The position numbers and the translations under genes are program-made. From assembly GCF_012913485.1 (NCBI RefSeq), contig NZ_CP051774.1:4836001-4900000 (forward strand): 64,000 bases of DNA. The letters are read 5' to 3'. The notes under the pieces are model-generated. The model saw only the letters and a program-made list of their open reading frames with translations. It was not told where the DNA came from and ran no database searches. The DNA comes from Luteolibacter luteus (GTDB lineage Bacteria > Verrucomicrobiota > Verrucomicrobiia > Verrucomicrobiales > Akkermansiaceae). Of the stretch, positions 41,423 to 61,490 are shown one piece after another; the stretch's first letter is position 1; the number at the start of each line of letters is the position of its first letter.

Positions 41423-41465
<43 letters not shown>

Positions 41466-45319: not shown

Positions 45320-47557
45320 TCAAAGGTTCGTCCATTCCGATACCGTGCCGTCGCCGTTCAGAGATCGGACCCGCGCATAGACAAGCGTGTGATTCTGGAA
45401 CTGCGTGGAGCCTCCCGGCTTGCCCTTGTCCCACAGCACGAGGTTGATCTTCTTCCCCTTCACCCGGGCGCGGTTTTCAACGTACGTCGCGGCAACGTAG
45501 GGATTCGCTCCCTGCTTCCATTCGTATTCGACCTTCGCCTCGACCTCGTAGGCAGCGGGCGTGATATCAGCCGGCGGATTCCACACCATTTTCACCGCCC
45601 CGATCTTGTGCCCAGTCTTGCTGGAGTAAGGCGTGAAGGTCTTGCTGACCCCGAGCGGCGCGCGCAGGTCTCCTTCGATCTCGGTCCAGTCCGACCAGCT
45701 CGTCGAGGTGACACGGGTCCGCACGCGCACGCGCTCGATGACATGGCCTTGGAATTCGAAGCTGCTCCCGGCGAAGTCCTCGTCGATCACCTGAAGGGCC
45801 AGCGTGCCGACACCCGGCGCCACTTCCCCGTTGGCTTCGATCACCTCGTCGGACCACGCGGTGAGCGAGTTCGGACGCCACTGGAAATGCATGATGACCT
45901 GCACCTCGATCGCGTCGAAGTCGATCAATGCCGGATCTTCCCACGTGGCTGTTACCGTGCCGGGGAAGAATGCCGCGTTGCTCGAATTGACCGCGACGGA
46001 GTATTCGAGGTTGTCCGGTTCGAGGTCGGATCCCGGGATGACCGGGCTTGCAAGCGCGAGCTCCTGCTCTTCGGTCGCCTCATCCCACGCGTAGAAGCTT
46101 TCCGAGACCTCCCGGAGCGTCAGGGTCGGCATCACCGCCGGGTTGTCGCCTCCTTCGATTGTAGTCTTGTGCTCGATCACGCGGAAGAGCCCGGAGAGTC
46201 CCATCGTCTGGAGGTCGAGCGTAACGGTGTCCCATGGCTTCACGTCGAGCCCGGTCAGCAGGTCGAGCCCCACTTCTACCGTGCGACCTTCACGCGCCGT
46301 CAGGAGCAAGATCTTGGCAACCCGCTGTGCTTGGGTGCTGGATGGAACAAACTCAAGGTTGATGTCCATCTCCAGTTCCAGCCCGTCTTCAGTCACGCCA
46401 TCCGCATGGATGATGCGCGGAAACTCGGTCGGCTGGTCGTGGCTCTCGGCACTGGCGAAGATCCCGCGGGCCACGTTCGCGCGCTCGCGATCGCTCGTTG
46501 CCGTGCGGACCCGGATTGCCCCCATGATGTTGGCATCGGTGATCGTGACTTCCGGCTCACGCCAAGTGCCGGCATGGATGTAGTAGTCGCCGTGGTGCTC
46601 GATGCAGGTTCCGGCCATTGCCCGGATGATCGGTTCAAGCCAGTCCCCGGGCTCTCCTTCGAGCGAGAAATACCCGCAGCACCGGTAACGCTTCTCCGTG
46701 CCGCCTCCCTTCAACGGCACCGTTTCGTCGCAGATGTTCGCCGCCTCGATCAGGGCGTCGGTGTCGATCCGTTCGCGCGGGACATTGAGCAGGGTCTCCA
46801 GCACGTTCGCGGCGATCAGCGCCGGGTTGTCGGTCCATCCGGTGCTTTCGTCGCGCGGGTCGTAGATGTCCTTCCGGCCTTTCATCCTCACCGTCATCGC
46901 GGGGATGAAGCTCGGCCAGATCTTCGAGTCGTCGGTCACATCGTAGACCAGCCGGGAGTAGAAATAGCAGATCCCGAGGGCGCGGTGGTCCACGGTCCAC
47001 TCCTCGCAATCCATCACCATCCCGGGAATCGCCTCCTGCGTGGCCGTGCCGAGCCGCCAGTTGAAGGCCGAGAACCGGCTGCGCGCGTGCCCGGTGTCCG
47101 GGACATACATGATGTATTCGTCGCCGAGCTCCGGGTGATACTCGCCGTAGGGCGGCACTCCATCCGATGGCACCACGGCAACCAGCTCGTTGAGCTGACC
47201 GTTGATGTAGACCGCTTCGATGCTCTCGCATTCGTGGGCAGCCAGGGCGATGCACATGTGGAGGCGGGTATTCGCGAAGTGGGATCCGCTGACGAAGAAG
47301 ATCACGCCGCCTTTCCGGACGCTTCCGTACACCACTTCGTGTGGGCTGAGCGGCTGCTTGATGTTTCCGGTGCGCGAGGGCTTGCGGGGCCCTTGGTCCG
47401 GGGCTGAGAGAGCGGCAGCGCCGGCGGATAGGCCCGCGGAGATTGCGAGATTGACCGCGATAGCAAGTGCGGTGCCTGCGGCAGTTAGTCCTCCTGTCGC
47501 CGTGGTTAGCCCCGCGGTTGTAGCGATTGCCGTCCCTATTCCTGCTTCAATTCCCAT
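45320..47557 (-). CDS. Phage tail-tip (J-like) host-specificity protein
   Basis: 745 residues. The N-terminus is Ala/Gly/Thr-rich and hydrophobic (ATTAGLTTATGGLTAAGTAL), as in tail-tip proteins. Next come QPLSPHEVVYGSVRKGGVIF, the tip-attachment-like region with ETLLNVPRERIDTDALIEAA and YRCCGYFSLEGEPGDWLEPI, and C-terminal fibronectin-type domains (AFFPGTVTATWEDPALIDFD). This order matches the central and C-terminal architecture of siphophage J/gp-tail-tip proteins, at a shorter length than lambda J (~1130 residues). No other tail-tip genes (K, L, I, M) are adjacent. Confidence 0.75.
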   Translation of the reverse strand: MGIEAGIGTAIATTAGLTTATGGLTAAGTALAIAVNLAISAGLSAGAAALSAPDQGPRKPSRTGNIKQPLSPHEVVYGSVRKGGVIFFVSGSHFANTRLHMCIALAAHECESIEAVYINGQLNELVAVVPSDGVPPYGEYHPELGDEYIMYVPDTGHARSRFSAFNWRLGTATQEAIPGMVMDCEEWTVDHRALGICYFYSRLVYDVTDDSKIWPSFIPAMTVRMKGRKDIYDPRDESTGWTDNPALIAANVLETLLNVPRERIDTDALIEAANICDETVPLKGGGTEKRYRCCGYFSLEGEPGDWLEPIIRAMAGTCIEHHGDYYIHAGTWREPEVTITDANIMGAIRVRTATSDRERANVARGIFASAESHDQPTEFPRIIHADGVTEDGLELEMDINLEFVPSSTQAQRVAKILLLTAREGRTVEVGLDLLTGLDVKPWDTVTLDLQTMGLSGLFRVIEHKTTIEGGDNPAVMPTLTLREVSESFYAWDEATEEQELALASPVIPGSDLEPDNLEYSVAVNSSNAAFFPGTVTATWEDPALIDFDAIEVQVIMHFQWRPNSLTAWSDEVIEANGEVAPGVGTLALQVIDEDFAGSSFEFQGHVIERVRVRTRVTSTSWSDWTEIEGDLRAPLGVSKTFTPYSSKTGHKIGAVKMVWNPPADITPAAYEVEAKVEYEWKQGANPYVAATYVENRARVKGKKINLVLWDKGKPGGSTQFQNHTLVYARVRSLNGDGTVSEWTNL

Positions 47558-47673
47558 GCTTCAACTGTCGCAGGTCTTATCAGCGATTGCGAGTCGTTAG
47601 CTGGTTTCTTCATACTCGTGTGGAGATATTGACGAGCTTGCAGTGGAATCCCATTTGCGATACCCAAATTACC

Positions 47674-48984
47674 ATGAGAAACTTCGCCACCTCTATCAAA
47701 GATTTCCGCCATCTGGAGGACTCTTGCCTAGTGGGCGAATTATGCGTTACGGCAGCGATCTTTCGCAGGTCTAGCGAGTATTTGCCTGTTCGGCAAACAG
47801 GCCTGTTGCTGTCACGGGAGGGAGAATTTCTGCTGCAATTCCGAGTTCCGGAAAAGTCCAGGAAACCTATTCAAAGTGGCTTCGGGCCTCGAGACGCAGT
47901 TCGAATTGCCTGGGCTCATGCAAAATTGGACGGTCACCTTGCTGTGAAGTTGAGAGACATAATTCCGGGGAGGGAGGTATGGAATTCGGACGGTACCCTC
48001 TACTGTGAGTATCGGATCGCTCGACTTGTCTTCGAGCCCTCGCGGGTCCCTGGTCGATCGAGCAAGAGCATTTCCATGCGCGGTGTCCTTCATTCCACGC
48101 TGCTCCGCTCAACGAACGCCGATCGTCAAACTACCGAAAGTTGGTCTGACGATAGCAGTTCGTCGGAAAGCTTTCAGAGTGCGGCGCTTGCAGGAACGAT
48201 CGGCAGCTACCTCTATTCCTTTAGGCAGCATGGGGAACACATCGAGCTGTTGGTCAGCTTGGTGAAAGGGAAGAGATCGAAGTCAGCGAGGGCCGATATG
48301 GCGTTTTTTCGGGCTCTCTTAGAAGCATTCAATTGGATGAACGGAGGGAGCCCATTTGAACACTTCTTCCTACATCGCAGAGATGGAAAGTCTCGGCACG
48401 AAGCTCGAAGCAGATGGAGTGGTCCCTTGGCGAAGCCTCGGCTGATGACAAGAGATCCGGCGGGAGACGTCGGTCCTAGATTGCTCTCTGCAGCTGTGCC
48501 AGTTTTGCTATCAGGAACTCAGCTTGGAAATGGCATCAAGTTGTTGCTCTGGCAATATCGAGAAGCAACCCGCGAAAGCTCCGTGACGCTGGGTGCGTTA
48601 CTTCAGCTCTGCGCATTACTTGAGGGGGCAATTGGATTGGTGCTCCGTCACAAATTGGGCTTGAGCAAGAGTGCGATCGATAAGTTGCCCTTGCCATCTG
48701 GACAGGTCGGACGCCCGGGTGTAGCTGAAGCGCGCTTCTACGAAGCTTCCACACGTTTAGGATTCTCTTGGGCAACTGAATTTGGCCCAGTTTTCCAGAA
48801 GTGGAAGGATGTGAGAAATAGTCTAGCGCACGGAGAGTTGATGAAGATCGATAGATCCTCCGGACGAGAAACTTTGGCTAAGTATCACGCAGTCCTTCAG
48901 GCATTCAACGCTATCATCTTGCGGGCGATCGACTACAAAGGATCCGTGAGCGTCGATGGGAATTGGTATGCAGTGAAGGCATGA
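47674..48984 (+). CDS. HEPN-like candidate defence protein (partner of SIR2 gene)
   Basis: 436 residues from the ATG at 47674; the open frame upstream of it does not look coded. The C-terminal ~110 residues are helical and carry an Rx4H motif, RNSLAH (Arg381, His386), within FGPVFQKWKDVRNSLAHGEL. This is the hallmark of HEPN ribonucleases and fits ApeA-like/Abi HEPN proteins. The N-terminal ~300 residues are beta-rich and unrecognised and could be the sensing part. It lies 71 nt upstream of the SIR2 gene on the same strand, against neighbouring phage genes, and is visibly AT-richer than most of the window. Function in phage defence is inferred. Confidence 0.7.
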   Translation: MRNFATSIKDFRHLEDSCLVGELCVTAAIFRRSSEYLPVRQTGLLLSREGEFLLQFRVPEKSRKPIQSGFGPRDAVRIAWAHAKLDGHLAVKLRDIIPGREVWNSDGTLYCEYRIARLVFEPSRVPGRSSKSISMRGVLHSTLLRSTNADRQTTESWSDDSSSSESFQSAALAGTIGSYLYSFRQHGEHIELLVSLVKGKRSKSARADMAFFRALLEAFNWMNGGSPFEHFFLHRRDGKSRHEARSRWSGPLAKPRLMTRDPAGDVGPRLLSAAVPVLLSGTQLGNGIKLLLWQYREATRESSVTLGALLQLCALLEGAIGLVLRHKLGLSKSAIDKLPLPSGQVGRPGVAEARFYEASTRLGFSWATEFGPVFQKWKDVRNSLAHGELMKIDRSSGRETLAKYHAVLQAFNAIILRAIDYKGSVSVDGNWYAVKA

Positions 48985-49055: not shown

Positions 49056-50324
49056 ATGAGCGAAAACGCAATTATTCTTGGGGCTGGCGCCAGCTACGAT
49101 GCTGGCATTCCTCTGCTAGGCAACTTCATGGATGTTATGGTCCGGATGGCCAATACCAAACGTGCGGGGAAGAGGGATTTGTCGGAGGAGGACTCGGGCT
49201 TGTTGTCAAAGGCAGTCGGGATCCGAGAGAAACTGGAGGGCTACCACGCCAGGGTTGCGGTGGACCAATTTAACATCGAAGAGGTCCTCTCGGTCCTTTC
49301 CTTCGAGTCGATCTCAGGAGATAGGCGTCGAAAGCGTGATCTTGACGATTTCACTCGAGCAATCGGACGGGTAGTGGAGCTTACTTGTGGTGTCACCCAT
49401 AGTGGGAAGCTCAACGTCATTCAGGAGTCGGGTCCCTACGACTATCGGCGTTTCTGGCTGGCGCTTCTTTCCCTCTGCCATTCGCGGTTGGTAGAGATTC
49501 CAACGATTCTTTCCTTCAATTATGATCTAGTGCTTGAAAGGGCTTTGTTCCAAGTAGTCGTCGGGCATCAGCACTCGGAAATTGTGAGGAAGCTCGGAGT
49601 CCAAGGGTTTTACATCGACTATTGCAACGATCATTGTGAGCCTGTGGCCTTTCGGTTCAAGCAGGCGGCGTTTATCGACAATGGGTATGCGAGTGAGTTT
49701 CCAAGGCAGGTAGCCGGGATTGTTCTCGAGCAGTTCACATATGATCGAGATAATCGTCCTGAAGGCTTTTTGAGGATTCCAATTCTCAAGCTCCATGGGT
49801 CGCTGAACTTTCCCAATGGCAAAGCCGACTCGGGGTGGCATCCGTTGGCCGCTTTGTCCGATCCCAAAATAATTCCACCAATATTTAACAAGACAGGTTC
49901 GGCATTTGCCGCCCCAATCTGGAAGGAAGCGCTTAGGTCTCTGCGCGAGTGTCGCAACCTTTCGGTTTGCGGATACAGCCTACCTGTAACCGACACCTAT
50001 ATGCAGTATTTCCTGAAAGCTGCTCTAGGTCCGAACAAAAGCCTGAACCGGGTGTTCGTTTTCGATCCTTGCTTGAGCAACGGCAGCGATGCTGGTCGTG
50101 CTTTGCGCAACCGCTATGCCCAATGCTTTTCGGCACCCCTTCAGCAGAGGATAGACTTCGATCCGGGAAATCAACAGGGAACTTTTTCAGGGATGGTCGA
50201 GCTTCTAGCGTCGGAACCTGATGTTCTCCTCGATGGCCTTTCCCCGGTGCCAGATCAGGAGGAACAATATCAAGCGGTGGAGCTAGTTCGCCGAGTGCGT
50301 CGCGATCGAATGGGGGGGCTGTAA
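49056..50324 (+). CDS. SIR2-like NADase-family protein, candidate defence effector
   Basis: 422 residues. A SIR2-like Rossmann domain fills most of the protein: the nucleotide-binding AIILGAGASYDAG (Gly9-Ser13), the active-site ILSFNYD (Asn155, Asp157), the catalytic-type KLHGSLNF (His247) and SVCGYSLPVTDTYMQYF near residues 303-320. These are the motifs of prokaryotic SIR2 NAD+-depleting effectors in Thoeris, DSR and short-Argonaute systems. No membrane segment, TIR or extra sensor domain is seen. It follows the HEPN-like gene by 71 nt on the same strand and likely forms a two-gene unit with it. The NADase role is from family knowledge. Confidence 0.85.
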   Translation: MSENAIILGAGASYDAGIPLLGNFMDVMVRMANTKRAGKRDLSEEDSGLLSKAVGIREKLEGYHARVAVDQFNIEEVLSVLSFESISGDRRRKRDLDDFTRAIGRVVELTCGVTHSGKLNVIQESGPYDYRRFWLALLSLCHSRLVEIPTILSFNYDLVLERALFQVVVGHQHSEIVRKLGVQGFYIDYCNDHCEPVAFRFKQAAFIDNGYASEFPRQVAGIVLEQFTYDRDNRPEGFLRIPILKLHGSLNFPNGKADSGWHPLAALSDPKIIPPIFNKTGSAFAAPIWKEALRSLRECRNLSVCGYSLPVTDTYMQYFLKAALGPNKSLNRVFVFDPCLSNGSDAGRALRNRYAQCFSAPLQQRIDFDPGNQQGTFSGMVELLASEPDVLLDGLSPVPDQEEQYQAVELVRRVRRDRMGGL

Positions 50325-53398: not shown

Positions 53399-54088
53399 TC
53401 ATTCCAGATTGAAGAGGACTCGGTTATATTCTTGATCGATCCTCACGCGCCCGACACTTCGTAGGAGAGGGGTGCTTTCCGGGCGGCTAAGGCCGAAAAA
53501 TTTGGTGAAGTCTATATTTGTTGCCTGCGATCGAATGCCGATAGCAATGTGCTTGAGATATTGCTTCGGCACCGATGTGAAATAATGGGGGCGACGAAAT
53601 TCAACGCTGGGATCCATGAACGAGACAAAGTGGCGATGCTCTTTCTCGAAGCTCCATCCAGGAGCTTTGTGAAGGAATCCGTCTCTGATCAATTGCGCCC
53701 TACGATCGGCCTCTTTGCTGATGTGCCCCCCCATTAGTTGATCAGCATAAAAGAACGGACGTTTTTCAACGTAGTTCACTTTCAAAGGCGCAACCTCTTC
53801 GGGGAAATCAAATCCGAATGCAACTCCCCGGTGGCAATCTCCGTAGTGCGCCCAGACCGCTGGATCGTGAATTGATTCGGTATAGCAAATGATCCCCCAA
53901 TCCTCGGTGTAGCACTTCAGTAGCAATTCAGGATCCATGCCCGTTCCCTTCTTCCCTTCGCGCGCAGGAAGCACAACGGGCCAGCAATCGAGAGGATCGT
54001 TGAGCTCTTGAATGCGGCCGAGTTTCCACTGTCCAGTTTCAAGGGCTTGAAATGCAAATTCCGTGGAGAGGTATCGCCAGAGGATCAT
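53399..54088 (-). CDS. DUF2971 protein
   Basis: 229 residues. It has the DUF2971 pattern: LWRYLSTEFAFQALETGQWK with NDPLDC at the start, IICYTESIHDPAVWAHYGDC then HRGVAFGFDFP in the middle, and a C-terminal KHIAIGIRSQATN segment. The family is of unknown biochemical function and is frequent in mobile elements and accessory islands. It lies 70 nt downstream of a membrane/coiled-coil gene on the same strand, and the two may form a cargo unit. Confidence 0.85.
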   Translation of the reverse strand: MILWRYLSTEFAFQALETGQWKLGRIQELNDPLDCWPVVLPAREGKKGTGMDPELLLKCYTEDWGIICYTESIHDPAVWAHYGDCHRGVAFGFDFPEEVAPLKVNYVEKRPFFYADQLMGGHISKEADRRAQLIRDGFLHKAPGWSFEKEHRHFVSFMDPSVEFRRPHYFTSVPKQYLKHIAIGIRSQATNIDFTKFFGLSRPESTPLLRSVGRVRIDQEYNRVLFNLE

Positions 54089-56612: not shown

Positions 56613-57200
56613 TCAGAAACCACGCTTCCTCAGCTCGTTTGCGAGGGCGGCATCGAACTCCTTTTCGAAGCGGCGAGGCGCTATCCGATCCTGAATCCTG
56701 TCGATCTTGGCGTGGAAGAATTCCTGGGTTGCCTGGTAGGTGAAGAGCCGGGTCACCCGCTGGTTGCCCGAAGGGTATCGGCCTTCACCTTTCTTGAAGA
56801 TGCCCTTCTTCAGGCTTCCAATCTGTTTGATTCGAAAGGTTCCATCGAGCTGCTTCCCTTTGAAGAAGACCTGAGAGACCTGCCGCTTGCTCTTGCCCTT
56901 GCCGCGAAAGAATACTTGAACCGTGGTGTTTTCGGTGGCTTCCAAACCCAGGCCCTTCCGGTCACTGACGGTCACCTCGACCTGACCGCTCAGGCGTACA
57001 GCTTTGTGAATTACGACGATCTGCTTTAGGGCGCTCTTCGCTCTTAGTTTCATCTCCTCGGCCAGATCAGATTGGGTCCTGCTTCTGACTGCTTCTCCTG
57101 TCTTGTTGAGGGCTTGCTGGGTAACGCGGGGAATGACTGTCCTTTGAAGCTCGGTCAGGCCGCGGGTAACATCGGCGATGTAGGATTTAACGGATATCAT
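56613..57200 (-). CDS. Phage minor tail protein Z-like
   Basis: 195 residues from the ATG at 57200. It has the pattern of lambda gpZ and related minor tail proteins: a short N-terminal helix (YIADVTRGLTELQRTVIPRV), QQALNKTGEAVRSRTQSDLA, then a basic region (KLRAKSALKQIVVIHKA) and beta-strand segments with KGLGLEATENT. The C-terminus is again basic and helical (FEKEFDAALANELRKRGF). Size and charge fit the family. It is 20 nt from the small gene upstream and likely shares its transcript. Confidence 0.68.
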   Translation of the reverse strand: MISVKSYIADVTRGLTELQRTVIPRVTQQALNKTGEAVRSRTQSDLAEEMKLRAKSALKQIVVIHKAVRLSGQVEVTVSDRKGLGLEATENTTVQVFFRGKGKSKRQVSQVFFKGKQLDGTFRIKQIGSLKKGIFKKGEGRYPSGNQRVTRLFTYQATQEFFHAKIDRIQDRIAPRRFEKEFDAALANELRKRGF

Positions 57201-57220
57201 GACGACTGTGGTTGGTGATT

Positions 57221-57445
57221 CTATGGGGGAGCGGAGGTAGAGTTTCGGGGCCTGACAGCGCGAGCTTTGCCGAGAGCAACGTCGCATGCGTCTGCAGCAG
57301 ACCTGTCGCCGCATTCAACGACGTGGAGAACCGATCGACTGGAGGCTTGCGGGTAAGAGCCTGGACCGATCACGATAAAGCACCGGCCGCATTCTCGAAG
57401 GAACGCGCTCTGCTCTTCGGTGAGGACAAGTCGGTGCACGTTCAT
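57221..57445 (-). CDS. Small protein coupled to the DnaC-like gene
   Basis: 74 residues. Its ATG overlaps the stop of the DnaC-like gene by 4 nt, strong evidence that it is translated. The sequence starts MNVHRLVLTEEQSAFLRECG and contains CFIVIGPGSYPQ and HVVECGDRSAADACDVALGK. No family is recognised. The position in the replication operon suggests an accessory replication role, but this is context only. Confidence 0.6.
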   Translation of the reverse strand: MNVHRLVLTEEQSAFLRECGRCFIVIGPGSYPQASSRSVLHVVECGDRSAADACDVALGKARAVRPRNSTSAPP

Positions 57446-58206
57446 TTCAGCTCAAAGATGGTGGAGCATTCAAGCAGCCGACCACGAAGGGGTGCGCCTA
57501 CATCGGCCGGCATGTTGGCGAGGAACTGGTCGGGGCGTGAATTCGCCGTCCAGATCGTCACAAGGTTTTCTGCGTGCCTGTGGTCGAGCAGGCCGAAAAG
57601 AGCTGCAGCCACAGCAGGCGTGTGGGTGCACTTCCCGAGGTCATCAAGCAGCAACCAGCCCGTTCGTCTGGCGAGTCTCAAGAGGTCCTTGGCTTCCTTC
57701 GCTTCATCACCTTTGCCGAATTGATTCCTCACAGCATCGGCGTAGTCCACGGCAGACACCGCGGAAACGAGCCACTCGCGCCCACGATCATATCCCTTTC
57801 GATCCATCCAGATGCGATAGGCGCCGCTCTGATCAAAGGTGAGGATGGCGTCGACAATCCTTTCGTAAGCGACCCGGGTTTTGCACTTCCCTGTGGGGCC
57901 AATGAGGCCAAGCCATGGCTTTTCGTCGGTCGGGTTCCACTTCTCAACATTCCCCCAAAGCTTCGCATTGAAACGTGGATCCTGGCGATCGGTCTGCGCC
58001 ATCCGTGAAGGTAGAAACCCGGAAAGGAACCTTTCTGCGTGCTCCTTGTGGTCGGCTCGGGCCTTCCTTTCCCGCTCAATTCGGTCGGCCTCAATACATG
58101 CGGGACAGTGCCATGGTCGGTCAACGGGGTTCCAAGAGTCCTGTTTCTCGGGCTCCTCCCAAGTAAAGGTTGCCCCACAGTCGCAGGTGTCTTCTTTCGT
58201 GGTCAT
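57442..58206 (-). CDS. DnaC-like helicase-loader ATPase with N-terminal zinc motif
   Basis: 254 residues. An N-terminal Cys motif (CDCGATFTW...WHCPAC, Cys8/Cys10/Cys34/Cys37) probably binds zinc. The AAA+ core has a Walker A-like GPTGKCKT (about residues 103-110) and a Walker B GWLLLDDLGK, with an arginine-rich C-terminus (GAPLRGRLLE). In Walker A the usual glycine before the catalytic Lys is Cys (GKCKT instead of GTGKT). It probably loads a replicative helicase at the element's origin, as phage DnaC/lambda P-type proteins do. Its start overlaps the initiator-like gene by 4 nt. Confidence 0.82.
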   Translation of the reverse strand: MTTKEDTCDCGATFTWEEPEKQDSWNPVDRPWHCPACIEADRIERERKARADHKEHAERFLSGFLPSRMAQTDRQDPRFNAKLWGNVEKWNPTDEKPWLGLIGPTGKCKTRVAYERIVDAILTFDQSGAYRIWMDRKGYDRGREWLVSAVSAVDYADAVRNQFGKGDEAKEAKDLLRLARRTGWLLLDDLGKCTHTPAVAAALFGLLDHRHAENLVTIWTANSRPDQFLANMPADVGAPLRGRLLECSTIFELK

Positions 58207-58913
58207 TCTTCGATTGGGATAAAGGTTCCTGTGCGATCCCCGATCTGGTCCTCGGAAGATTGCTCCGCTGTCTTTGCTGCCTGAAGGTTCAGGGGCCGAT
58301 CGGCTCGGCTAAGCCAGTTCGTGATGAATCGACGGGTAAGGCTTCTGCCTGGATGTCTGGCAATCCACACCGACGCGCGCTCTATCTCCCCATCGATGTC
58401 GAGTCCTTCGAATGAAGGATCCTTTCGAAGCGAATCGATCCAATCGGCGTCTGAGAGCTTGCTTGTACTCTTTCTCTTTTTAGGGGGTACCTTAGAGGGA
58501 GTTCCTTTGTGTCCCGTTTGGGGGGACGGGTGTCGTCCCGTTTGGGGGGACGGGTTCTCTTCGACCCGTCCCGATTCGGGGGACACCTCCCGTCCCGTTT
58601 GAGGGAACAGGTCGGCAGAAACCTGTCCCGTTTGGGGGGACGGGTTGATTTCGCTACCCGTCCCATTTGGGGATACGGGTTCAATGAGCGTTGTCTGACC
58701 CGGACGAGACTCCCGGCGGATGAGTCCAGCCGTCTCCAGCTCCTTCAGGACAGAGAAGACGGTCTCACGCTTTAGCCGGCAGATGCTGGCAATGGTCGAT
58801 GCGTTGGAGTAAGTCCGACCGCGGCGCCAGAGGTGCACGAGGACACGCATCTGCTGAGCAGTGAGAGGGAGATCATCCAGCCAAGCGGGAATGAATGGCG
58901 GCTTCTCCTTCAC
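58203..58913 (-). CDS. Winged-helix replication-initiator-like protein containing origin iterons
   Basis: 236 residues, GTG start, overlapping its neighbours on both sides by 4 nt. The N-terminal ~90 residues form a winged helix (LTAQQMRVLVHLWRRGRTYS, ICRLKRETVFSVLKELETAG). The middle is a low-complexity region of repeated (P)SPQTG(R) units, encoded by six iteron-like DNA repeats. The C-terminal ~60 residues are helical (DADWIDSLRKDPSFEGLDID, SLTRRFITNWLSR). The plan, a DNA-binding N-domain, iterons inside the gene and a helicase loader directly downstream, parallels lambda O/P, so it likely initiates replication of the element. Confidence 0.72.
   Translation of the reverse strand: MKEKPPFIPAWLDDLPLTAQQMRVLVHLWRRGRTYSNASTIASICRLKRETVFSVLKELETAGLIRRESRPGQTTLIEPVSPNGTGSEINPSPQTGQVSADLFPQTGREVSPESGRVEENPSPQTGRHPSPQTGHKGTPSKVPPKKRKSTSKLSDADWIDSLRKDPSFEGLDIDGEIERASVWIARHPGRSLTRRFITNWLSRADRPLNLQAAKTAEQSSEDQIGDRTGTFIPIEE
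58511..58680. repeat. Six dyad-symmetric iterons, candidate replication origin
   Basis: Six copies of a ~21-bp unit based on GTCCCGTTTGGGGGGACGGG begin at 58511, 58535, 58568, 58592, 58625 and 58660. The spacing is 24, 33, 24, 33 and 35 bp. Each unit contains the inverted halves GTCCC and GGGAC. They lie inside the initiator-like gene, where lambda-type origins sit. Mismatches are concentrated in copies 3, 4 and 6. Confidence 0.78.
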
Positions 58914-59068
58914 CCGGCCCTCCCGCGTTGCAGTTCGTCGAGTAGACGAAGAACCCGCTTTGCTTCGTGTGGAGCTCGCCTATCTAAAGGCCGGACTAGG
59001 TTCTCCCGGTCCCAAGAAGGGGTTTCCTTTCGTAGCCTCTGCTGTCGTCGTGCGCGATGGTATCTCAC
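58910..59068 (-). CDS. Small basic protein, translationally coupled on both sides
   Basis: 52 residues, GTG start at 59068. It begins MRYHRARRQQRLRKETPSW and ends EAKRVLRLLDELQRGRAG. Its start overlaps the stop of the gene at 59065-59262 by 4 nt (GTGA), and its stop overlaps the initiator-like gene start by 4 nt (GTGA). This chain of overlaps and the coherent composition support a real gene that automatic callers would miss because of its size and GTG start. Family unknown. Confidence 0.55.
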   Translation of the reverse strand: MRYHRARRQQRLRKETPSWDRENLVRPLDRRAPHEAKRVLRLLDELQRGRAG

Positions 59069-59262
59069 GGCCGGCGACGTGGTTCGCGGTTGAGGGAATC
59101 GAGGATGCTCAGCACGCGGCCAACGCTTCCTGAACCCCGAGGTGGAGGAGGTCCTTCGATTACTTCGTAATCCGGATCCTGATCCTCAGCGTATTTGTCG
59201 GACTGTCCCTCTTTCTTTCTCCAGAATGAGGAGGTGGGATTGTTTCGGCGATGCTTCTTCAT
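59065..59262 (-). CDS. Small phage-type protein
   Basis: 65 residues. It begins MKKHRRNNPTSSFWRKKEGQ, then an acidic stretch (SDKYAEDQDPDYEVIEGPPP) and a short C-terminal helix. It overlaps the next gene's GTG by 4 nt, which supports translation. First gene of the overlapping replication operon. No function assigned. Confidence 0.5.
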   Translation of the reverse strand: MKKHRRNNPTSSFWRKKEGQSDKYAEDQDPDYEVIEGPPPPRGSGSVGRVLSILDSLNREPRRRP

Positions 59263-59364
59263 GGTCGCTGCAATGTTGGATTGCAGGCCGCCGCGGGCAG
59301 GGTAGAGTGCTGGCGAGCGAGGAAACTCACCGGGTCGATCCGCCTCACGGGTCGGCCCGGGTTT

Positions 59365-59583
59365 TTAACCTACGTTGGCGGTCTCAGGTTGACCGGATAC
59401 ACACCCAGTAATTCGGTTGACCTCGGCGGCGGAGATCATAGCGGCGCCAAAGCCTGTGATCGGAGTAATCGCTCCCTTGGCAACCTGACGATAGACCCAT
59501 GAGCGATGCTTTCCTAGCATTGCTGCCACTTCTTCGAAGGAGTATGCCCTGCGTTCGATCTGTTGTTTGATGGTTTTTGCCAT
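59365..59583 (-). CDS. AlpA/excisionase-type helix-turn-helix protein
   Basis: 72 residues from the ATG at 59583. It is a compact HTH_17/MerR-like DNA-binding protein: RRAYSFEEVAAMLGKHRSWV, YRQVAKGAITPITGFGAAMI, SAAEVNRITGC. Proteins of this size next to an integrase are typical excision factors or AlpA-type activators in satellites and prophages. It is 102 nt upstream of the replication operon on the same strand and about 0.7 kb from the integrase, so it could control both. Confidence 0.72.
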   Translation of the reverse strand: MAKTIKQQIERRAYSFEEVAAMLGKHRSWVYRQVAKGAITPITGFGAAMISAAEVNRITGCVSGQPETANVG

Positions 59584-60287
59584 GACCACCCTGACGCAGC
59601 ACTTCACGACAAGGCGGAAGAGATCAGAGCAGAGCGCGGATCTTGGCGACTGGATGCGAGACCGTCACGCTTCTTGCTCTCGGCAAATCAACAGGCGGTC
59701 AAAGCTGGGACTCGCTGGTAATCAATGCTGATTGATGGCGCCCGCAGACAAAAATAGAACTGACGCCGGTGCCGGGAACATTCCCAGTAGGAGCAGCTCT
59801 TTGTATTCCACTGACGCGGCTGGAACCCATGTGGCTCTAGGGCCGCAAAGCTGGCCGGCTCTTTCTATGAGTCGAAAAAACCAATGTTTGCCGAGGTATA
59901 GGCGATCACGTCGACAGCACTTTCTAAATACGTGTCGCAGCTCTAGTCCTTATGGCCGTAGGAAAGTCGGCCCTCTCAGCTCTTTTTTTGTGCGACTTCA
60001 ACTTGGCCGTTCCAAATGGCGCCGGTCCGCGAGCTTATGTAATTTCAAGCACGACTTTGCTGGTTTCCATGACAATCCTCTCTCCCTTGGCATTGATCCA
60101 AGAGGCTTGAAGGGCTCCGCTGGGGCGACGGGTAAGGCTTGGCATGGCAGCTCTTTACTATGTTCTGTCGCGGCTCTAACGCGGATGAAATCTAGGGTTG
60201 CTCGCCGTTGGTGAGATTTTCCTGTATAGAGCCGGATGCTTTGGTCAAGGCTGCAACCAGTCTTCGACTTACATAGCGTCGGGGAGC
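59584..60287. other. Non-coding region between HTH gene and integrase (704 bp)
   Basis: No gene I can support. Open frames here lack coherent composition. A repressor or small regulatory RNA would be expected in this position in a prophage or satellite, but none is recognisable by eye. Promoters for the leftward operon probably lie here. Confidence 0.5.
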
Positions 60288-61340
60288 TCAAATCGCCACC
60301 TTGAGTATTTGAGCCTCACTATGCTTCTCGATCACGTGTCCGTAAGTTTTGGCTGCGAGGGCACCCCCGTCCTTGTGCCCAAGCCAACTGGCTATCGTCG
60401 GAATATCCACGCCCGCTTCGATGCACCGCGTGGCAAAGATGTGTCGGAGATCGTGGATGCGCAGATGCGAGAGCCCCAGGCGGTCGCACGCGCCCTCCAG
60501 CGCAAGGCGAGGGGACTTCATCGGCATCACAGGGTCCCCGCCACCATGCTGCTTTACCTGCTTCAGCTCGGCGAGGACGTCGCGGGCGGTGGAGGTGAGG
60601 GGCACGCGGCGGAATTCGTCGTTCTTCGCGGTGCGGATGACAATGGCGCTGTCGGTGATGTCTCCCCACTTCAAGGCCTGCGCTTCCGAGATGCGGAGGC
60701 CGGTGGAGGCAAGTAGACGCACTGCGGCTGCTGCCGCTTTCGAGTGAGCTTTCCGCTGGCCGATGATCTCGGCAACAATCCGACCGAAGTCGTCGATGGT
60801 CGGAAGGTCGCGCTTGCTCTCGATGGGCTGGAGCCGGTCGAGTTCGTCGGCGAGGTTGAGCGTTACCATGTGGGCTTCGATGGCCCGATCATAGGTGCGG
60901 CGCAGCAGAGCCAAGGAGCCGTTGTAGCGCGTCCGGGAAACCAGCTTGGCATGCGCATCCATCCACGATCGGAGATCGGCGAGCGTGGCCTTGCTGATAG
61001 ATTTCGCCGCGGGCTTGCCGTCGAGGGTATCGCTGGTAGCGATCAGGCTTGCGCCTACCTGCTGGTAATAGTGCCGAGTGGTTTCCTTGATGCCGGGATC
61101 TTCGCGGAGCGCTTCATCCGTGATGGCTTCCGCCAACGTGCCCGCTTTCTTCGCATTGGTCGTGCCCCGAAGCTCATTAAGTGCCGCGGTAAGGCGGCCC
61201 TTCGCCGTGTTGAAGTCTTCGGTTTCAAGACAGCGGCGACGGACCTTGCCATCCACCTTGGTCACGGCGTAGTAATTGCCCGCCCGATGACGAAAGAGGT
61301 TTTCAACCTTCGATTTAGCGAACTGCGCTTTCTGTTTCAT
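60288..61340 (-). CDS. Tyrosine recombinase/integrase of the element
   Basis: 350 residues from the ATG at 61340; a GTG at 61373 would extend it over a candidate arm site. The N-terminal arm-like region (AGNYYAVTKVDGKVRRRCLE) and SAM-like core-binding domain precede the catalytic domain, which has the family residues: Arg in ASTGLRISEAQAL, His-x-x-Arg in HDLRHIFATRC, His in WLGHKD and the nucleophilic Tyr in KTYGHVI. It catalyses integration and excision at the CAU tRNA gene whose start is 78 bp away. It is oriented away from attR. Confidence 0.93.
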   Translation of the reverse strand: MKQKAQFAKSKVENLFRHRAGNYYAVTKVDGKVRRRCLETEDFNTAKGRLTAALNELRGTTNAKKAGTLAEAITDEALREDPGIKETTRHYYQQVGASLIATSDTLDGKPAAKSISKATLADLRSWMDAHAKLVSRTRYNGSLALLRRTYDRAIEAHMVTLNLADELDRLQPIESKRDLPTIDDFGRIVAEIIGQRKAHSKAAAAAVRLLASTGLRISEAQALKWGDITDSAIVIRTAKNDEFRRVPLTSTARDVLAELKQVKQHGGGDPVMPMKSPRLALEGACDRLGLSHLRIHDLRHIFATRCIEAGVDIPTIASWLGHKDGGALAAKTYGHVIEKHSEAQILKVAI

Positions 61341-61415
61341 CCCGTCGCGAATTGTTCCTGCGAAGGTATGCACCGGATGGATGCATTTAGCCAGCGTAAT
61401 CGGCGCAACTCATTG

Positions 61416-61490
<75 letters not shown>

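Follow-up and report, generated by a model that had tools for sequence, protein, structure and literature searches.

The integrated element and its initiator-like gene

The window, that is, the whole 64,000-nucleotide stretch of the Luteolibacter luteus genome analyzed here, carries two exact 43-bp attachment-like repeats at a tRNA-Met gene that bracket approximately 20 kb (41423 to 61458). The distal copy lies at 41423 to 41465 and the proximal copy at 61416 to 61458, both on the plus strand, and the latter overlaps the tRNA gene (61418 to 61490). Genes for a tyrosine integrase (60288 to 61373, minus strand; Pfam Phage_integrase, E value of 1.2e-21, and phrog_1, 4.8e-45) and a small, excisionase-like HTH_17 protein (59365 to 59607, minus strand; HTH_17, 4.2e-6, and phrog_66, 1.3e-5) are located upstream of an initiator-like gene (58203 to 58913, minus strand). 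Immediately downstream is a gene for a DnaC-like helicase loader (57442 to 58206, minus strand; phrog_50, 9.2e-13, and phrog_3277, 9.3e-8), the place that a helicase-loading gene takes in a lambda-type origin region. Tail or tail-completion genes lie inside the element at 56613 to 57314 and 45320 to 47557, and no capsid or terminase was found among the element proteins scanned, which represent part of the open reading frames, some by Pfam or PADLOC only. With structural genes recognized solely of the tail type, the element resembles a reduced prophage or a satellite. It is perhaps decayed, and its origin may be inactive now.

The element also encodes a SIR2-like protein (49056 to 50324, plus strand) that matches PADLOC Aga_SIR2 (2.7e-9), with weaker matches to SIR2 models and a Pfam SIR2_2 match below the cutoff. 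It adjoins a gene for an unrecognized protein of 485 amino acids (47527 to 48984, plus strand), and the two are possibly a defense pair carried by the element. A DUF2971 protein (53399 to 54088, minus strand) matches the candidate phage-defense family PDC-S31 (7.9e-17).

The initiator-like gene starts with GTG and encodes 236 amino acids, comprising a winged helix-turn-helix domain, a linker, and C-terminal helices. The protein matches phrog_270 (replication initiation; 1.6e-8), as do all 16 aligned members of the initiator family, and, at 2.7e-6 and 3.1e-6, phrog_345 and phrog_678, both labeled as O-like replication initiation. In Pfam, it matches a MarR-type winged helix-turn-helix. An AlphaFold2 model, built on a 15-row alignment, places the winged helix at residues 10 to 79 (58677 to 58886, minus strand), with pLDDT values of 93 to 98 over blocks 11 to 80, helices at residues 10 to 14, 19 to 31, 38 to 45, and 49 to 61, and strands at 65 to 68 and 76 to 79. 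The linker (approximately residues 81 to 150), within which the iterons fall, has pLDDT values of 43 to 55 and is predicted to be disordered, and the C-terminal helices (155 to 225) have values of about 54 to 67. With a disordered linker, the peptide would be free to drift while the underlying DNA word stays.

Comparison of the initiator with lambda O by hhalign gave a probability of 5% over 57 columns, and the lambda O family was absent from its Pfam hits up to an E value of 1. Because the profile comparison gave no homology, the protein is not assigned to the lambda O family itself, for which the matches to phrog_345 and phrog_678 are insufficient. The top 50 hits of a fold search against viral models included replication initiators and HTH proteins, mostly with TM-scores near 0.3 on the query, and 1 of the 63 hits at an E value of ≤0.001 was named GpO N-terminal (TM-score of about 0.3). 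The corresponding search of the PDB returned MarR-type regulators; 4pql ranked 12th and 4pt7 ("Structure of initiator") 23rd, and no hit fell below an E value of 0.001.

The iteron array and the DNA beside it

Six dyad sites with the core GTCCC-N7-GGGAC, imperfect in some copies, occupy 58511 to 58676, about 240 to 400 bp into the coding region of the initiator gene (58203 to 58913), and the array is thereby placed within the initiator coding sequence as in a lambda-type origin. The dyad core is 17 bp long, reads GTCCCCCCAAACGGGAC or a near variant on the minus (coding) strand, and is often flanked as ACCCGT...ACGGGT on that strand. All six sites are assigned to the minus strand. Iteron 6 (58511 to 58527), which is nearest to the unstable segment described below, iteron 5 (58535 to 58551), and iteron 2 (58625 to 58641) match the consensus at 17 of 17 bases, and iterons 4 (58568 to 58584) and 3 (58592 to 58608) do so at 15 of 17; these five are in frame 2. 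Iteron 1 (58660 to 58676) is in frame 0, matches at 14 of 17 bases, and starts 35 bp from its neighbor. The steps between starts are 24, 33, 24, 33, and 35 bp. All six starts and their spacings agree with those given in a sequence-only reading of the window. That reading had the repeats encode an SPQTG-like linker, which holds for five copies in a single frame and fails for the sixth, iteron 1, read as SPNGTG in another frame. It had also stated that the 24- and 33-bp steps keep the frame, which they do; we add that the 35-bp step shifts it, since 35 is not a multiple of 3. In the 6.41-Mb genome, the 17-bp word occurs at 20 places with at most three mismatches. Six of these, including all three exact copies, are the array, and the other 14 are scattered with respect to one another and carry two or three mismatches each. 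A reversed-pattern control gave 19 places.

Two codon controls were applied. In one, the protein was held fixed and synonymous codons were resampled in 20,000 sequences; in the other, the gene's own synonymous codons were shuffled. The six copies agree with their consensus at 95 of 102 cells, compared with a mean of 75.8 and a maximum of 85 after resampling, and 27 of the 30 arm pairs are complementary, compared with a mean of 12.4 and a maximum of 22; neither observed value was reached by any of the 20,000 resamplings. Shuffling gave maxima of 88 for identity and 23 for the dyad, again never reaching the observed values. With 27 of 30 pairs complementary, each iteron is an imperfect inverted repeat of approximately 17 to 19 bp, as in lambda-type origins. 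The off-frame iteron 1 agrees with the other copies at 14 of 17 bases, a score attained by 31 of the 20,000 resamplings and 404 of the 20,000 shuffles, and this single match taken alone is evidence of lesser weight.

Within the gene, stability is lowest over the 60 bp at 58449 to 58508, a candidate unwinding segment that immediately follows the 3' end of the array as read on the coding strand. It stands at the 98.9th percentile of the element for 60-bp segments, and the least stable 40 bp (58463 to 58502) at the 99.2nd for that length. This 40-mer starts 7 bp past the array, where a lambda-type origin has its melting segment. Among the checks proposed earlier, the one for an AT-rich unwinding element found the gene's least stable DNA abutting the array, although the minimum for the element is elsewhere, near 52.0 to 52.2 kb. 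Another, on GC skew, gave no switch at the array.

Relatives, viral contigs, and inverted sites

Relatives were sought in several genome searches, in each of which the query's own genome was counted and among which thresholds differed and draws overlapped. With the initiator protein as the query, 13 of 192 genomes had a match, 6 of them chiefly via the linker and C-terminal part, and with the winged-helix alignment, 12 of 386, 5 of 387, and 8 of 260 genomes did. A scan of genome contigs returned three loci, all from one Verrucomicrobiales MAG. No match to phages was obtained by tblastn with the whole initiator, and no relative turned up when viral contigs were scanned with protein patterns; the DNA word itself, described below, found relatives where these protein-based searches gave little.

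The array survey covered 19 genes (the window gene, 16 relatives, lambda O, and O of Yersinia phage YeP1), each with 200 codon-resampled controls. A first scan had comprised 26 genes. Eight of these (L027, L030, L032, L035, L036, L041, L042, and L043) were omitted for a short frame or no visible array and L046 was added, a selection made after looking. L004 and L006 to L010 (matching chiefly in the linker and the C-terminal region), L013 (its match interrupted by a stop codon), and L045 (cut by a contig end) were left unused. In 13 of the 19 genes, an array of at least three dyad sites beat all 200 controls: the window gene, L022, L029, L046, L019, L017, L031, L023, L025, L024, L026, lambda O, and YeP1 O. 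Reading frame varies among the copies in 11 of the 13 arrays, and a single frame is kept in L024 and YeP1 O. Arrays that were weaker against the controls occur in L020 (3/200), L018 (3/200), L016 (6/200), and L034 (1/200, two copies), and L033 and L028 showed no array in the same survey. The iteron words vary from locus to locus; L026, for example, has seven sites resembling AGTCCGCCACACGGACT, and those of L046 resemble CCCCAAAACCGGGG. The YeP1 O gene (L040, 2480 to 3496) is made up differently from the mostly off-frame arrays elsewhere, with 15-bp linker repeats in one frame.

The 45 steps of 12 arrays, leaving aside the sixth copy of L031, which is 183 bp away, cluster at 21 to 24 and 33 to 36 bp, with others of 17, 20, 57, and 63 bp, and 22 of the 45 are not multiples of three. 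The steps showed no distinct helical phasing, since the R of 0.63 at 10.5 bp was equaled or nearly equaled at 11 (0.63) and 12 bp (0.62) and barely exceeded that at 13 bp (0.60). For DNA stability, 13 of the survey genes were used, L024, L026, L033, L034, L028, and YeP1 O being excluded. In nine of them, lambda O included, the least stable 40-mer of the gene starts between −14 and +30 bp relative to the end of the array, and in L022, L017, L023, and L025, it lies elsewhere in the gene. The best 40-mer starting at most 60 bp after the array reaches at least the 98th percentile of its own gene in 12 of the 13 (the 79th in L023), a measure that favors high values because it is a maximum.

AAGG-type words follow the iterons in the window (approximately 58463 to 58510) and in nine relatives, every 9 to 29 bp and mostly every 12 to 15 bp, in two frames in several genes. 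At least two such words stand in tandem right after the array in 10 of 13 genes. Against a protein-sequence control, P was 0.045 to 0.26 in seven genes and below 0.01 in L017, L016, and L018. A second DNA-level module was considered and set aside, since the words are mostly accounted for by a KGxP-like peptide repeat.

The gene following the initiator is replicative, encoding a loader, DnaB, or a primase-helicase, in 8 of the 11 relatives scanned. A DnaC-like loader is next in L022, L029, L046, L061, and L026 (via its copy L063), a DnaB helicase in L017 (via L039) and L018, and a primase-helicase in L031 (via L037). The next gene was not recognized as replicative in L016 (a terminase small subunit) or in L020 and L025 (no match). 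The order integrase, initiator, loader also occurs in L046 (contig L058, 7268 to 12237) and L029 (contig L055, 2467 to 6032), and L058 encodes a head maturation protease (phrog_80, 2.7e-45), which makes it a prophage with head genes. The loaders of the window (57442 to 58206), L022, L029, and L046 have a Walker-A-like loop, GxTGx[SC]KT, with Ser or Cys where the last Gly of a Walker-A motif is usual.

A scan of viral contigs with the 18-bp DNA word retrieved four contigs, L059 to L062, each with five sites within one winged-helix open reading frame, all matching at 17 of 17 bases except one at 16 of 17 in L060. The steps are 35, 46, 24, and 25 bp, and the sites use all three frames, encoding SPQTG, PPKRDR, and VPPNGT. 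Codon resampling in each contig gave at most four sites; five were reached in 0 of 3,000 cases. L059, L061, and L062 are close to one another over the initiator gene (94 to 99%, with some flanks of L062 at 82 to 91%), and L060 is more distant. The proteins of L061 and L060, the two of the four that were scanned, match replication-initiation families, and the next gene in L061 is a DnaC-like loader (phrog_50, 3.6e-41). Similar scans with the L017 word and with a pattern for the inverted window word found nothing in viral contigs, and the L026 word led to L063, whose initiator sequence is identical to that of L026 and gives no independent support.

The winged helices of L059 to L062 are identical to that of the window at only 30 of 77 positions (39%), yet they are almost alike where the recognition helix starts, with CRLKRETVF in the window and CRIKRDTLF in the viral proteins. 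All seven aligned genes that bear the word (the window gene, L022, L029, and L059 to L062) have Lys48-Arg49 at this helix, as does L020, which has one site, and Lys48 is present in none of the 11 other aligned genes, all of which lack the word. This alignment omitted L024, L026, lambda O, and YeP1 O of the survey genes. L046 is identical to the window over 41 of 80 winged-helix positions, yet it lacks Lys48-Arg49 and has a different word. Since the Lys48-Arg49 genes amount to about two clades, the apparent link between helix and word is a pointer rather than statistical proof.

L022 and L029, which are located on separate contigs of one genome (G360), have the winged helices nearest to that of the window among the aligned genes (57 of 80 and 57 of 79 identical), and their linker identity to it is low (17 of 47 and 14 of 44). 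At a threshold of three mismatches, L022 matches the word six times, always inverted and never directly; six inverted matches were reached by 0 of 5,000 codon-resampled controls, and the inverted sites encode PSRFGG-like peptides. In L029, whose other sites have drifted, this threshold yields two inverted matches (10 of 5,000 controls). Both loci share with the window the first steps (35 and 33 bp) and the pattern of frames. Over 25 bp, inverted and direct scores for L022 sites 1 to 5 are 22 and 13, 23 and 18, 18 and 14, 17 and 11, and 17 and 15; at site 6, they are 16 and 18, which does not favor inversion. For L029 sites 1 to 4, they are 23 and 14, 22 and 15, 18 and 13, and 16 and 11, and site 5 ties at 13 with site 5 of the window and scores 12 inverted and 16 direct against site 6. 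All six L022 sites are oriented opposite to the six of the window. In L022 and L029, sites 1 and 2 retain the flanks and position of their counterparts, with the orientation reversed and a similar lesion in one arm, and these two would carry the main weight of a case for inversion in place.

The inverted matches together with the diverged linker indicate that the duplex site was kept and the peptide was not. Comparison of relatives had been proposed to decide whether DNA or protein is conserved, and across them, the DNA word is retained while the peptide is altered; the opposite outcome, a kept peptide with lost DNA words, was not seen. We tentatively suggest, as a possibility we consider somewhat doubtful, that embedded origins of this family evolve by flipping single iterons where they stand, with the array, its first spacings, and the winged helix being retained. 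A concerted flip, if it occurred, would imply that orientation has to agree within an array although each site is nearly symmetric, possibly via a directional A-tract bend, and that palindrome-driven template switching reshapes origins inside coding sequence.

A candidate origin and its known counterparts

Judged from the sequence, the array is very probably an origin of the lambda-like kind, to which the initiator encoded by the same gene binds. The lambda-type layout that had been proposed is borne out in the window: iterons lie in an initiator-like gene, a DnaC-like loader gene comes next, and the gene's least stable DNA abuts the array. The array would serve as the replication origin of the 20-kb phage-derived integrated element. 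We infer that the initiator uses its winged helix to bind every near-palindromic iteron, most probably in dimeric form, and that the array, once occupied, puts strain on the unstable DNA just downstream (approximately 58449 to 58508). The DnaC-like protein from the next gene would then load the DnaB helicase of the host onto the separated strands.

Three other explanations were weighed. The winged-helix protein might bind these sites for autorepression or in a partition-like role. The domain is indeed MarR-like by profile and fold, and two centromere-binding winged helices, 4rs8 and 5k5q, rank 18th and 31st in the fold search, in which no hit fell below an E value of 0.001. However, the array lies some 240 to 400 bp inside the coding region and borders the gene's stability minimum, replicative genes are next in 8 of the 11 relatives scanned, and a phage replication-initiation family is matched by all 16 aligned members, and we regard this explanation as improbable. 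The palindromes could instead act in the transcript, as RNA hairpins or terminators, with the 5-bp arms pairing as stems. That is very improbable: there is no Rfam match within 57400 to 59700, and a hairpin explains neither why the whole 17-bp word, center included, is kept in distant genes nor why it is located beside a stability minimum.

The repeats might also be a mere coding repeat of an SPQTG linker, with a palindromic look due to codon choice. Five of the six copies do share one frame, which the 24- and 33-bp steps keep, and a single frame is retained in L024 and in YeP1 O. Nevertheless, no codon resampling reached the observed identity or dyad, the same 17 bp is used in three frames across four viral contigs, and the word is inverted in L022. 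A reading as a coding repeat only is already contradicted by these results and has next to no probability.

An origin bound by its own initiator would extend the lambda arrangement to Verrucomicrobiota genomes and viral contigs with initiators that are not recognizably lambda O. The same word at 39% winged-helix identity, together with the shared Lys-Arg pair, might be of use in predicting origins of uncultivated phages from sequence, and the off-frame and inverted copies provide a natural test of DNA-level versus protein-level selection in one stretch of a gene. In a literature search covering few subscription journals, no title or opening of an abstract among the papers listed described this array or an inversion of iterons.

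The nearest known counterpart is ori-lambda, which two papers place inside gene O, with iterons that are inverted repeats of 18 to 19 bp bound by O dimers and an AT-rich stretch of about 40 bp after them (PMC5043065, PMC6022878). Four iterons are annotated in O in the lambda record. Like lambda, the window has dyad iterons in the initiator gene that read CCC...AAA...GGG on the coding strand, an unstable stretch right after the last iteron, and a helicase-loading gene next (P in lambda). The lambda copies lie in three frames at spacings of 20, 24, and 23 bp, and the window likewise has an off-frame copy. In contrast, the iteron word is another one, there are six sites rather than four, with extra steps of 33 to 35 bp, the loader is DnaC-like instead of P, and the initiator has no detectable sequence homology to lambda O. 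The proposal that the array would work like ori-lambda is well supported by sequence comparison, the likeness being one of architecture and not of membership in the lambda O family. Shiga-toxin lambdoid phages (P27 and 933W) have six iterons in the middle of O, the two extra iterons adding 13 residues, and only four of the six were strongly bound in vitro, as one article relates (PMC7466680). They share the number of iterons with the window and differ in having lambda O family proteins and lambda-type iterons.

The origins of iteron plasmids contain nonpalindromic direct repeats outside the rep gene. Those of F, P1, R6K, and RK2, like the window, have initiator-binding repeats beside an unstable stretch, binding being predicted here. 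Plasmid iterons bind monomers, according to one of the papers on lambda (PMC5043065). Each site of the window, by contrast, is a dyad and is inside the gene, for which reason an origin of the iteron-plasmid type was rejected.
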